In this document: one piece after another, positions 13,790 through 43,791 of the stretch | Position numbering within the stretch: the first letter of the stretch is position 1 | Layout: every line of letters begins with the position of its first letter | Source of the DNA: Bacillota bacterium | GTDB taxonomy: Bacteria; Bacillota; Clostridia; Christensenellales; Pumilibacteraceae | NCBI GenBank assembly: GCA_009780135.1 | Contig: WRAP01000001.1 | Location: forward strand, 62,001 to 126,000 | Length of the DNA: 64,000 nt | Direction: 5' to 3' | Translations under genes and position numbers: made by a program | The notes under the pieces: model-generated | The model's database searches: none | Told to the model about the DNA's origin: nothing | The model's input: only the letters and a program-made list of their open reading frames with translations

Positions 13790-14425
13790 TTAAAAGAAAT
13801 AGGACATATGATTCCAGTTTGGGTTAGAGTTTGATTCTAAGATAACAACAATTAAGATAATAGCAACTATTGCTAAAATAATTAATCCGATTATAGAAAG
13901 TCCTATAATATTTAATATACGAGCTGTTTTTATTTTATTCTCTCCATCGGGACTAGAGTTAGCACCAGATGCCATAACAATGGCAATGATGCCTAAAATA
14001 AAACTAATCCAAATTCCTAAACCAAAGATAATGTTTATAACACCCAAAACAATTTGCATTGTTGTTTTTATAGGTTCTTTAGTTTGGTTGTTGTATGCAT
14101 TGCTATGGCTATAGTATTGTGGATTGTGATGATTATACAGATACGGCGGGGGAGTATTTGCTTGAGGTGTGTAATATGGTTGAAAATAGTTTGGAGGAGG
14201 TGGGAAAGTTGTAGACAGCTGATGTTGCGAATCTGATTGCTGAGGCGGTATTTTTGGTCTACTCGTTACGTTATTATTTGTAGGATTATCTAAATTACCA
14301 TTATCACTAGATGTTGGTGGTGGGGGAAAATAGTTGGATTGCAACGAAAGATTTGATCCGCATTGCCAGCAATAAGCATTATTTCCCATTTTTATAGCTC
14401 CACAATGAGAACAAGTATTTTGCAT
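13790..14425 (-). CDS. Zinc-ribbon, proline-rich, dispanin/DUF4190-like membrane protein
   Basis: Residues 1-25 form a zinc ribbon (CSHCG and CWQCG). About 85 residues of Pro/Asn/Gln-rich linker follow, then two hydrophobic helices (about 125-150 and 170-198) separated by a short loop containing ENKIKTARILNIIG. The helix pair with a conserved basic/Ala loop resembles CD225/dispanin and DUF4190 proteins. AGGAGG lies before the ATG. It is 65 bp downstream of the PadR-like gene on the same strand and could be its co-transcribed partner. A second protein of the same type is encoded at 35950-36348. Confidence 0.65.
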   Translation of the reverse strand: MQNTCSHCGAIKMGNNAYCWQCGSNLSLQSNYFPPPPTSSDNGNLDNPTNNNVTSRPKIPPQQSDSQHQLSTTFPPPPNYFQPYYTPQANTPPPYLYNHHNPQYYSHSNAYNNQTKEPIKTTMQIVLGVINIIFGLGIWISFILGIIAIVMASGANSSPDGENKIKTARILNIIGLSIIGLIILAIVAIILIVVILESNSNPNWNHMSYFF

Positions 14426-14490: not shown

Positions 14491-16485
14491 CTAAACCGCA
14501 TACCTACCACTTTTAAATAAGGCATAAAAGACTATTGAGCTTATCGGGAATGTTAGCGACATAAGTGCTGGCAGTAATAAAGTTACAAAGTGGTCTAGGG
14601 CATTATTCATAGTTGGCATCATGCCAAAGTAAACATTTATAAGATATGTTATTATTAAAAATAGTACAACTAAAGCAAAACGGAATAACAGTGCATTTCT
14701 AAAACTGTATTGTATTCGTTTTTGTTTATCAATTTCTATAAACGCATTTACAAAAGCAACTATAGGAAGTATTGCCGTTAGTACAATAAATATAACATAA
14801 ACAAAAGCATTAAGCCCCTCCCAATTGCTAGGACGACCTGCCTCTATAGCAAAGTTCTCTAACAAAAACACAATGCCAATAACAGCAAACATTATGCCAA
14901 ACATTATCATAAAATGCACAAGTTTTAGGCGGTTAGAATAATAATAGAAGTTTTCATCTTTTTCTGTCCTTACATTATGCGAATAAGTACGGATAATAAT
15001 ATCGTCATCCAACTCTCTAGAAACTACAACGCTGGCATTATCAACTGTGGCCAAACTAGTGGAGTTGGTTATAGTAGGCAGTGTATCTTGTTGAGTTGCA
15101 ATAAGTTTTTCAGGATAGCTTACTCCGTAAAACTCGTATTCTAGTTGGCGTTTTGTATCTAAAATATCTTGGCTGGGCGGAATAACAGCGGGTTCTGCAA
15201 GCTCTCCGTGCGGTACTTCTTCTAATGTTGTCGTTTGGTTAGCTACAAGCCTAGATAAAATTGCTTGATAATTACGCTCTAAATCGGTTTCGCCTTCGCT
15301 TGAATTATATACACGGGTAGAATAGCTTAAAAAATTGTCGTCTTTTTGTTCTGCTCTATTGTCATCGTTAGAAGTGTTTTTAAGCTCTTCCACTTGTGTT
15401 TCTTCTACTTTTTCTAAGCCTAATGGGTCGGGACGGTAATCCATAAAACCAGTAAATTTAGGTTCTTCATCCTCGCCGAATAATGCTTTTTTTGCTAGTT
15501 CTTTAGCTTTAATATCTTCTTCTGATTCTACAATTTCAAATAAATGGTCGTTATTTTGTTCGCTATCTATTAAATTATCGAACGGATGTTGTGGAGGTTG
15601 AGTTGCTTCTTGAGATGACAGCGAAAAATCGTTGCTAAAAAAACTATTGTAGTAGTCACTGTTTACTGCTTGATTAACTCCTTGAAGAGCTTTAGGTTCT
15701 ACAATAGGTTTAGCCTCGTAATTGTTCTCTGTAGCGTTTTCGCTAAAACTAGCATCAATGCCTATAGCTAAGCGAATATCGTCTAATAAAGCTCCAGCAT
15801 CTAAATATTCGTCTGCAATTGCTTCAAATTCATTCGCTGTTGTTGATTCTGTTGTTTCGATAGTAGCTTGTTCGTTAGGAAAATCTTCTTCAAAATTGTC
15901 TTTTTGAATTTCGTAAAGTAAATTTTCTTCTTCTACGAAAAAATCCTCATCGTTTTCTTCATAAGCATCCGATTTTAATTTATTTATTTGCTCTTCTTCA
16001 AAAATTTCTTCAATTATTTCCTCTGCCTCTATATTCTCAACTTCAATATCAATATCGTTTTTAGATATAGCTGTTTCGACCTCTCCCACAACAGTAGTGG
16101 TTTTATATACTTCGTCCTCACTTAATCTCGAAAAATCAAATTCTTTATCAGAAATCAGCTTATCTATAACAGTTCTAGAATACTCCCATTCACTTTGATG
16201 ATTAGCAAAAACCTCTCTGCCTATATCGGTTAGAGTATAATATTTGCGTCTACCACCAATACCGCCCATTGCTTTAGCACCCATATAGGAGCGAATTTGA
16301 CCTTGTTCTTCTAGGCGTTTTAGGCAACTATAAAGCGTGGCCTGCTTTAGCACATACTGACCGCTAGACTTTTGTTCTACTTCCGCTATGATGTCTTTAC
16401 CATATCTATCGCCCTCGTATAGAGCTTTTAGAATAATAGTATCAATATTACCACGAACTAAATCGCTTTTTATAGTTTTTTTCAT
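14491..16485 (-). CDS. Membrane-anchored PadR-family transcriptional regulator
   Basis: Residues 1-110 are a PadR winged helix (LVRGNIDTIILKALYEGDRYG, then LKQATLYSCLKRLEEQG and GGRRKYYTLTDIG). About 400 residues of acidic, low-complexity sequence follow (runs such as EAEEIIEEIFEEEQ). The last 140 residues contain four transmembrane helices (about 529-552, 566-588, 606-626, 638-658). Ordinary PadR proteins are 100-200 residues and soluble; this one is 664. The membrane part could sense envelope or lipid state (inference). The gene has a perfect consensus promoter and a PadR-type operator at the predicted start of transcription, implying autoregulation. No SD is visible before the ATG. Confidence 0.75.
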   Translation of the reverse strand: MKKTIKSDLVRGNIDTIILKALYEGDRYGKDIIAEVEQKSSGQYVLKQATLYSCLKRLEEQGQIRSYMGAKAMGGIGGRRKYYTLTDIGREVFANHQSEWEYSRTVIDKLISDKEFDFSRLSEDEVYKTTTVVGEVETAISKNDIDIEVENIEAEEIIEEIFEEEQINKLKSDAYEENDEDFFVEEENLLYEIQKDNFEEDFPNEQATIETTESTTANEFEAIADEYLDAGALLDDIRLAIGIDASFSENATENNYEAKPIVEPKALQGVNQAVNSDYYNSFFSNDFSLSSQEATQPPQHPFDNLIDSEQNNDHLFEIVESEEDIKAKELAKKALFGEDEEPKFTGFMDYRPDPLGLEKVEETQVEELKNTSNDDNRAEQKDDNFLSYSTRVYNSSEGETDLERNYQAILSRLVANQTTTLEEVPHGELAEPAVIPPSQDILDTKRQLEYEFYGVSYPEKLIATQQDTLPTITNSTSLATVDNASVVVSRELDDDIIIRTYSHNVRTEKDENFYYYSNRLKLVHFMIMFGIMFAVIGIVFLLENFAIEAGRPSNWEGLNAFVYVIFIVLTAILPIVAFVNAFIEIDKQKRIQYSFRNALLFRFALVVLFLIITYLINVYFGMMPTMNNALDHFVTLLLPALMSLTFPISSIVFYALFKSGRYAV

Positions 16486-16608
16486 AGAATTTTTTATGCC
16501 ATATAAAATTGATATTTACTATGGTTACAATAAATTCACTAAAGCGAATTTATTGTCGAAATACAGCAAATTTCCTGTCGAAAGAAGTGGAAAAAGCTCT
16601 TAAAATAA

Positions 16609-16624
16609 ATGTATGCCTACACAT
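16609..16624. promoter_or_regulatory. PadR-type operator ATGT-N8-ACAT
   Basis: ATGT (16609-16612), 8 bp, ACAT (16621-16624) is the known PadR half-site arrangement. It also holds the dyad GTATG-N6-CATAC. It lies just downstream of the predicted start of the PadR gene (about 16626), where a bound dimer would block initiation. Confidence 0.7.
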
Positions 16625-16632
16625 ACCCCTAC

Positions 16633-16661
16633 ATTATACAGTTTAAACTTATATTTGTCAA
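16633..16661 (-). promoter_or_regulatory. Consensus sigma-A promoter of the PadR-like gene
   Basis: On the minus strand, TTGACA (16661-16656), 17 bp, TATAAT (16638-16633): a perfect consensus. The predicted leader is about 140 nt. Confidence 0.85.
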
Positions 16662-16748: not shown

Positions 16749-16823
16749 GCCTTCGTAGTTAAATGGATATAACAGCCCCCTCCTAAGGGGCCGTTACAGG
16801 TTCGATTCCTGTCGAGGGTACCA
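16749..16823 (+). tRNA. tRNA-Arg (anticodon CCT)
   Basis: A complete cloverleaf: acceptor GCCTTCG/CGAGGGT, D stem GTTA/TAAC, anticodon stem GCCCC/GGGGC with loop CTCCTAA (anticodon CCT, reading AGG), T stem ACAGG/CCTGT with loop TTCGATT. The CCA end is encoded. Confidence 0.95.
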
Positions 16824-42120: not shown

Positions 42121-42146
42121 GGTATTTTTATATTTAATTACGAAGT

Positions 42147-43100
42147 ATGTCAGGCATAATGTTAGGAAAAGTTATAAAATCAGGGAGCAATTTGTTTATT
42201 GTCGATACTGAGTTCGGCATAATTTCTTGTTCTGCTCACCGAAATGTGTTTGATGATTTTATCGATGAGAGAAAAGAAAAGCCTCAAAAAATGGAGGATT
42301 TTAGAAAGGGTGCTAGAAAAAACCGTATCCGTGATATAAAATTAGCAGAAAATGTTCAGAGAAAATCAATAATAGCAGGCGATATTTGCAAGCTCATTAA
42401 AGAAAAAGGCGACGAAAGCTGGACAATATCCAAAATCCTACCACGCATAAATACTTTAATTCGTCCTAAAGTTGCTAATATCGACCAAATTATAGTGGTG
42501 CTAGCGCCAAAGCCCGAACCTGACTTATTACTTATAGATAAGCTAATTATAAATGCAAAACATCAAGGGATAGCGGTTGTTTTGTGCGTAAACAAAAGCG
42601 ATTTAGAAAGCGATTTGTACACTGAAATTTGTTTGCAATATAACTCTATAGCGGATAAAATAATTTCTGTGAGTGCTAAATTTGGAGATATAACTTCGCT
42701 AAAAAATATACTAATAGGAAAACTTTCGGCATTTGCGGGTCAATCTGCGGTAGGTAAGTCTTCGCTAGTAAACGCTTTAACAAAAACCGAAATTCAAAAA
42801 ACAGATACGCTATCCAACAAAATTGATAGAGGTAAAAATACAACAACTCGTGCAGAGATTATCAAACTTAGCTCCAAAACCTACATTATAGACACCCCCG
42901 GCTTTAGTGCACTAGACATTCATGGTATTGATTACTCCGAGCTGGATTTATACTATCCTGAGTATGTGGCGATAGCAAGTGACTGCAAATATCCTCGTTG
43001 TACGCACACCGTAGAGCCAAATTGCAAAGTAAAAGAACGTGTTATGTCTGGCATGCTAAGTAAAAAACGTTACGATAGGTATTGTATTTTACGAAAATGA
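42147..43100 (+). CDS. rsgA: Ribosome small-subunit biogenesis GTPase RsgA
   Basis: An OB fold, then a circularly permuted GTPase (G4 VNKSD, G1 GQSAVGKSSLVNAL, G3 DTPGFSAL) and a C-terminal zinc site (CKYPRCTHTVEPNCKV). It matures the 30S subunit. Followed by rpe, as in Bacillus (prkC-rsgA-rpe). The ATG at 42147 or 42159 could be used; no SD. Confidence 0.93.
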   Translation: MSGIMLGKVIKSGSNLFIVDTEFGIISCSAHRNVFDDFIDERKEKPQKMEDFRKGARKNRIRDIKLAENVQRKSIIAGDICKLIKEKGDESWTISKILPRINTLIRPKVANIDQIIVVLAPKPEPDLLLIDKLIINAKHQGIAVVLCVNKSDLESDLYTEICLQYNSIADKIISVSAKFGDITSLKNILIGKLSAFAGQSAVGKSSLVNALTKTEIQKTDTLSNKIDRGKNTTTRAEIIKLSSKTYIIDTPGFSALDIHGIDYSELDLYYPEYVAIASDCKYPRCTHTVEPNCKVKERVMSGMLSKKRYDRYCILRK

Positions 43101-43110
43101 TAAAATTATT

Positions 43111-43791
43111 ATGGAAAACTTAAACACAAACAAAAGGCATGAAATCCCGCTAATTGCACCATCTATTTTGAGTGCAGATTTTTCTAATATCGCTTTAGAT
43201 ATTCGTCGTATGGAAGAGGCAGGGGCGGACATTCTCCACTGCGATGTTATGGATGGGATTTTTGTGCCAAATATTACTTTTGGTCCTAAATTCATAAAAG
43301 ATATTCGCAAAGTTACAAAGCTACCGCTTGATGTTCATTTAATGATAACTAAGCCAGAGCGATATATTGATAGCTTTATTGATGCCGGTGCTGATTATTT
43401 AACGATTCACTATGAGGCAACGGATATATTGCTTCCGACACTAGAAAAAATTAAAAACCGTGGAATTAAAGCAGGAACAGTAATTAGTCCTGATACGCCT
43501 GTCGATGTCCTTAAAGAAGCCCTTGTTCTGTCTGACATAGTATTGCTTATGAGTGTTTACCCAGGGTTTGGCGGTCAAAAATTTATTGAAAAATCACTAA
43601 GTCGATTAGAAGAATTGGTTGCACTGGCAAAGGAAATTAGTCCGAACTGTTTAATCGAGATAGACGGAGGAGTAACATTAGAAAATGCTTCTGCTATCAA
43701 AAAGGCTGGTGCTGATATATTAGTGGCGGGCAATACCGTATTTACTTCGCCTAATCCTAAACAAACTATTGCCGAGTTAAAAAGTATATAA
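43111..43791 (+). CDS. rpe: Ribulose-phosphate 3-epimerase
   Basis: A TIM barrel with PSILSADFSNIALDI, HCDVMDGIFVPNITFGP, LDVHLMI, MSVYPGFGGQKFI and EIDGGVTLENA. It interconverts ribulose-5-P and xylulose-5-P, working with rpiB just upstream. 226 residues; starts 10 bases after rsgA, no SD. Confidence 0.95.
   Translation: MENLNTNKRHEIPLIAPSILSADFSNIALDIRRMEEAGADILHCDVMDGIFVPNITFGPKFIKDIRKVTKLPLDVHLMITKPERYIDSFIDAGADYLTIHYEATDILLPTLEKIKNRGIKAGTVISPDTPVDVLKEALVLSDIVLLMSVYPGFGGQKFIEKSLSRLEELVALAKEISPNCLIEIDGGVTLENASAIKKAGADILVAGNTVFTSPNPKQTIAELKSI

Follow-up and report, generated by a model that had tools for sequence, protein, structure and literature searches.

A membrane-anchored PadR protein conserved in Clostridia is a candidate tether for palindromic sites around the replication terminus

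A 64,000-nucleotide stretch of the genome of a member of the Pumilibacteraceae (contig WRAP01000001.1, positions 62,001 to 126,000; here referred to as the window) codes for a 664-residue PadR protein (positions 14491 to 16485, minus strand) that combines a winged-helix DNA-binding domain, a long acidic linker, and four predicted transmembrane helices in a single open reading frame. We propose, with a probability of about 0.55, that this membrane PadR is a membrane-anchored, site-specific chromosome tether that organizes the terminus region. The proposal draws on sequence comparison, specifically the architecture and conservation of the protein, a palindrome that recurs upstream of padR in its relatives, the concentration of this palindrome around the terminus in three genomes, and the covariation between palindrome and recognition helix.

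Architecture and conservation of the membrane PadR protein

The N-terminal 111 residues (16153 to 16485, minus strand) constitute a PadR winged-helix domain with a dimerization-type helix. Residues 18 to 94 match Pfam PF03551 (E 1.6e-15; 57.3 bits against a curated cutoff of 27), a profile of the domain matches solved PadR structures, including 9qbd and 1xma, with E values down to 3e-33, and the AlphaFold2 model (pLDDT 85) shows a winged helix with a long helix after it. Alignment of orthologues places the recognition helix, KQATLYSCLKRLEE, at residues 47 to 60 (16306 to 16347, minus strand). The MatP and ParB families were not found in the protein, and its DNA-binding domain is of the PadR and not the MerR type.

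The domain is followed by an acidic, variable, and probably disordered linker that extends from about residue 112 to residue 505 (14971 to 16152, minus strand); the 378 residues sampled include 93 Asp or Glu versus 27 Lys or Arg (a net charge of -66), and neither Trp nor Cys. The linker is not conserved in the orthologue alignment apart from short islands. One of these, ERNYQAILSRLV (15244 to 15279, minus strand), has the consensus ERxYxxxLxxL, a pattern present in 19 of 28 orthologues and with a nearly invariant tyrosine (Y406), and is a possible docking motif or helix. The linker has a second conserved element with the motif F-x-S/D-Y.

Four hydrophobic segments (residues 519 to 550, 555 to 586, 593 to 626, and 633 to 657) form the transmembrane region at residues 519 to 657 (14515 to 14931, minus strand), and AlphaFold2 predicts four long helices and a small beta bridge for the C-terminal 190 residues (mean pLDDT 85). 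The loop between helices 2 and 3 is rich in Lys and Arg, which fits an N-in/C-in topology with both termini in the cytoplasm. A PDB structure search with the transmembrane domain gave no match at E <= 0.001, and in both the alignment and the AlphaFold2 model an extracytoplasmic sensor domain is absent, with only short loops connecting the four helices. The membrane PadR is predicted to dimerize and to insert into the membrane, and its linker is predicted to be disordered.

A profile search shows that the PadR domain, linker, and transmembrane helices are encoded in one open reading frame in 61 of the 74 genomes of the window's family, as a rule as a single copy, and tblastn traces the same single-frame domain order through the family and the wider order. 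Among the named carriers are the strain record Pumilibacter muris CLA-AA-M08 and numerous Clostridia of gut, termite, and rumen origin, most of them uncultured. A preliminary description of this locus had proposed a PadR winged helix held at the membrane by a long, flexible acidic tether, and had considered that the homologues might normally be split genes; the domain order recurs in other genomes, the homologues are single open reading frames, and the conserved architecture is consistent with a PadR domain held at the membrane. There is no conserved operon partner, and the orthologues share only loose housekeeping neighbors.

The padR promoter and the family palindrome

The padR gene is preceded by a sigma-70 promoter, TTGACA-17-TATAAT (16633 to 16661, minus strand), that matches the consensus at 12 of 12 positions, as reported previously; it is the sole 12/12 match between 9 and 24 kb of the window, and most padR orthologues have promoters matching at 11 or 12 positions. 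The palindrome ATGT-N8-ACAT located at +2 (16609 to 16624, minus strand) had been put forward as the operator. The element is indeed present, but it is the only match in the window where 1.29 are expected from shuffles, it is missing upstream of every other padR orthologue examined, including those of two congeners, and its region scores poorly (3.5) on the family's own motif. We therefore rejected it as an operator, as it is without conservation and occurs at chance level, and it is probably not the operator of the family; its position at +2 of the padR promoter is nonetheless a noteworthy coincidence.

Comparison of the upstream regions of padR orthologues yields a palindrome of the form TTATGTCWGACATAA or TASTATG-N5-CATASTA. 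Dyad discovery in these regions recovers TTATGT-N3-ACATAA (a 6+6 dyad) in six of them, with shuffled maxima of 1 to 3, and matrix scores of 14 or more are reached in 10 of 37 padR upstream regions versus approximately 1.2% of random segments. Among 71 named loci with the usual recognition helix (a set that overlaps the 37 upstream regions), 15 have the 13-mer upstream of padR when up to two mismatches are allowed, compared with 0 of 71 for the reversed control. The upstream region of padR also has the site in G050 and G054, which belong to other families. These palindromes, exemplified by the candidate sites TACTATGTCTATCATAGTA and TTATGTCTGACATAA, are near-perfectly symmetric around the core TATGTCWGACATA and contain ATGT-N3-ACAT, the spacing being N3 and not N8.

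It is probable from this distribution that padR is autoregulated in many relatives. The operator named earlier is probably not the site of the family, and a good family-type palindrome is missing at the window's own padR promoter. Close downstream of padR, and on the same strand, is a gene (13790 to 14425) whose product is rich in proline and has a zinc ribbon and two likely membrane helices. It had been suggested as a target or partner, but no homologue is found beside any of 39 padR orthologues (best E 0.07); the gene is private to the window's genome among those examined, and we discarded it as a conserved partner.

Palindromes are concentrated around the replication terminus in three genomes

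The palindromes are not confined to padR. Exact TTATGT-N3-ACATAA sites number up to 15 per genome and sites matching TTATGTCWGACATAA with at most one mismatch up to 40, with controls mostly at 0 to 2 for each; the form that prevails in g2, g4, g7, and g16 has extended flanks, TASTATG-N5-CATASTA. De novo counting finds TTATG-N5-CATAA 15 times in 400 kb of G015 (1.4 expected) and TATG-N5-CATA 27 times in P. muris (G003; 7.3 expected). The window itself has two weak candidate terminus-type sites, GTATGTCAGGCATAA (42145 to 42159) and TTCTGTCTGACATAG (43526 to 43540), each with two mismatches and of low confidence.

A change in GC skew from plus to minus together with converging genes is the mark of a replication terminus, and we mapped skew in three chromosomes, all of them draft assemblies. 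In G015, the skew sign change and gene convergence coincide at 171 kb of contig C1; in the window's genome (G000), the same two changes occur at 325 kb of C1; and in P. muris, the skew switches at 327 kb of C1. In all three genomes dnaA is on a contig other than the terminus contig that carries the sites, and the sites cluster in the quarter of the chromosome that surrounds the terminus. All 15 of the G015 sites with at most one mismatch are on the 476-kb terminus contig, and 32 of 41 sites with at most two mismatches are within the 400 kb sampled (8.6 expected; P 1e-14 under a uniform model). In the window's genome, 12 of 16 sites with at most two mismatches are on C1 (3.9 expected; P 3e-5 under a uniform model), and in P. 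muris all 8 sites are at 200 to 475 kb of C1. The reversed control gives 3, 3, and 1 in the same stretches of the three genomes, respectively, and local base composition is thus not the explanation for the clustering.

In g17, 16 of 22 site loci show synteny with the G015 terminus contig; for windows of a comparison contig the figure is 13 of 66. Some of the g17 sites, in G030 (C23) and G079 (C20), are close to dnaA. Clustering close to the origin was considered and rejected, because dnaA is elsewhere and the skew marks the terminus. The padR gene itself is 12 kb from the skew switch in G015, 16 kb in P. muris, and 249 kb in the window's genome. A search for dif with the Bacillus subtilis consensus gave no convincing match.

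Most sites of the first form (30 of 48) are inside genes and 18 are between genes; the latter number exceeds the prediction from coding density, and some sites may therefore be regulatory. The in-gene sites are mostly in one frame, encoding (I/V)MSDI(I/N/T), and mostly in housekeeping genes, including uvrA-like, helicase, PBP, ackA-like, and mtaB-like genes, names that reflect our own reading of the sequences. The PBP gene carries its site at amino acid 530 in the window's genome and at about 575 in g17, which suggests selection on the DNA and not on the protein. Because the sites are mainly intragenic, we rejected a regulon read from promoters.

These distributions bear on the earlier interpretation of the protein as a one-component sensor of membrane state acting at its promoter. 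In its broader form, the membrane PadR would be a conventional transmembrane transcription regulator, similar to CadC or ToxR, that senses membrane state and controls a regulon as well as itself, with the in-gene sites being incidental or minor. The presence of a helix-turn-helix and transmembrane helices in one chain, the sites upstream of padR, and the over-representation of intergenic sites are all compatible with this, but we consider it unlikely, given that the first-form sites are mainly intragenic and concentrated around the terminus, that a conserved operon partner is absent, and that there are short loops in place of an extracytoplasmic sensor domain. Intragenic, terminus-centered sites are better accommodated by a tether between chromosome and membrane.

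Which protein binds the palindromes

The TLYSCLKRLE form of the recognition helix co-occurs with the palindrome. In 23 genomes with this helix the two palindrome patterns total 333 versus 12 for the reversed control, and in six genomes with an altered helix they total 10 versus 12, although these pooled counts and their P values are inflated because closely related genomes are not independent. Membrane PadR proteins with an altered helix but without such sites occur in g18, g5, g6, and one g13 genome (G014). Among these variants, orthologues L058, L061, and L064 (g18) and L067 and L068 (g5) have changed helices and no matching palindrome; the g18 and g5 proteins may recognize a different site or no longer serve this function, and a de novo search for a g18 palindrome in 400 kb of G019 yielded nothing convincing. 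An order-wide comparison of the motif in genomes with and without a membrane padR gene gives a weak result outside the family.

Small soluble PadR proteins provide a second line of evidence. Away from the terminus, a TACTATG-N5-CATAGTA-like palindrome precedes a gene for a small soluble PadR by 30 to 145 bp in six genomes (G015 C2:217364, G027 C20:79661, G023 C1:96651, G032 C14:87315, G095 C20:6798, and G021 C74:13427). This suggests that PadR domains in these bacteria read such geometry and that the soluble paralogue is autoregulated through it; binding to ATGT/ACAT half-sites has been described for PadR proteins (PMC3506622, PMC5428041). Taken with the sites upstream of padR and the helix covariation, these palindromes point to the membrane PadR as the binder, and we infer that it remains uncleaved in the membrane and organizes the terminus.

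It is also conceivable, but distinctly improbable, that another DNA-binding protein owns the palindromes and organizes the terminus, with the membrane padR gene merely a target or neighbor. Sites near padR would be expected anyway in G015 and P. muris, where the gene is near the terminus, and two g9 genomes (G010 and G024) keep about seven to eight sites each while a profile search detects no membrane PadR gene, for which gene loss, an assembly gap, or another binder are possibilities. A separate binder, however, would not readily account for the covariation with the recognition helix, the same half-site geometry adjoining small PadR genes, or the persistence of the site upstream of padR in other families.

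A replication fork trap, comparable to the winged-helix RTP of B. subtilis, would similarly employ a winged-helix dimer and sites in the terminus region, but is very unlikely. RTP has polar, asymmetric termination sites, whereas the near symmetry of these palindromes leaves no visible polarity; a block to forks from either direction, placed within housekeeping genes on both arms, would be deleterious, and the membrane anchor would be left unexplained. The idea that misassembly or a frameshift joined a soluble PadR gene to one for a membrane protein, for which we found no support, can be dismissed, as the identical single-frame order is present in dozens of independent assemblies, one isolate included.

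Proposed role and relationship to known systems

In the tether model, a membrane PadR dimer would bind palindromes scattered, mainly within genes, across a few hundred kilobases around the terminus, with the acidic tether of 300 to 400 residues spanning the reach from the four membrane helices to the DNA. It would probably serve to keep the terminus region in place at the membrane or septum, or to organize it there, and a site near its own promoter may set the level of padR, by either self-repression or activation.

A close parallel in site organization is matS, a 13-bp site that occurs 23 times over 800 kb of the Escherichia coli terminus region, which MatP links to the divisome via ZapB (PMC3330122). 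The two systems are alike in having short, specific, dispersed sites in the terminus region, a DNA-binding protein devoted to them, and an envelope link, the latter two being proposed here. They are not homologous, and MatP, which reduces the mobility and delays the segregation of the terminus, has neither a PadR domain nor membrane helices, whereas the membrane PadR has its anchor in the same chain. MatP and ZapB are reported in enteric bacteria only, and for this reason it is described as unclear how most bacteria coordinate the terminus with the envelope and with division (PMC7188993). We give roughly even odds that the membrane PadR is an integral-membrane terminus organizer in the Bacillota, in which one polypeptide is both the binder of dispersed palindromes and the membrane anchor, and in which terminus anchoring has been reinvented from a transcription-regulator fold in a lineage without a reported MatP.

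ZapT of Caulobacter crescentus is likewise annotated as a transcription regulator with potential sites preferentially inside open reading frames near the terminus, but it is a nonhomologous MerR-family protein of the Proteobacteria that acts via ZapA/ZauP and has low sequence specificity in vitro (PMC7188993). CadC, ToxR, ChiS, and TfoS also have a DNA-binding domain held at the membrane in one chain (PMC11856585, PMC6320335); these act at promoters, in contrast to the mainly intragenic first-form sites near the terminus, and the membrane PadR has four helices in place of their sensor domain. With the soluble PadR-s2 proteins LmrR and bcPadR1 it shares the winged-helix fold and, in its candidate sites, half-sites of the ATGT/ACAT type, together with autoregulation, which is probable here (PMC3506622, PMC5428041). 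Those proteins, however, are soluble, have about 110 residues, and use operator spacings of approximately N8 to N10, compared with N3 (TATGT-N3-ACATA) here.

RocS of Streptococcus pneumoniae and Noc of Bacillus also link the chromosome to the membrane and to cell division. Both are without a PadR domain and bind the membrane peripherally instead of through four helices (for RocS partners, see PMC12203958). Noc sites avoid the terminus, where the membrane PadR sites concentrate, and the membrane PadR has no ParB domain of the Noc/ParB type.

If the tether model is correct, a single membrane protein and a coded set of chromosomal sites serve a widespread gut clade as a simple, self-contained tether, and annotation as a PadR transcription regulator may conceal a structural role. 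P. muris, a cultured member, makes this reading testable.

We note that a gene for a XerC-like tyrosine recombinase of about 355 residues often immediately precedes padR in the same orientation (L035, L045, L049, L052, L054, L055, L062, and L063). In the window, a tRNA-Arg (CCT) gene (16749 to 16823) is between padR and gyrB, and gyrB is separate from dnaA in this genome, the latter being on another contig.
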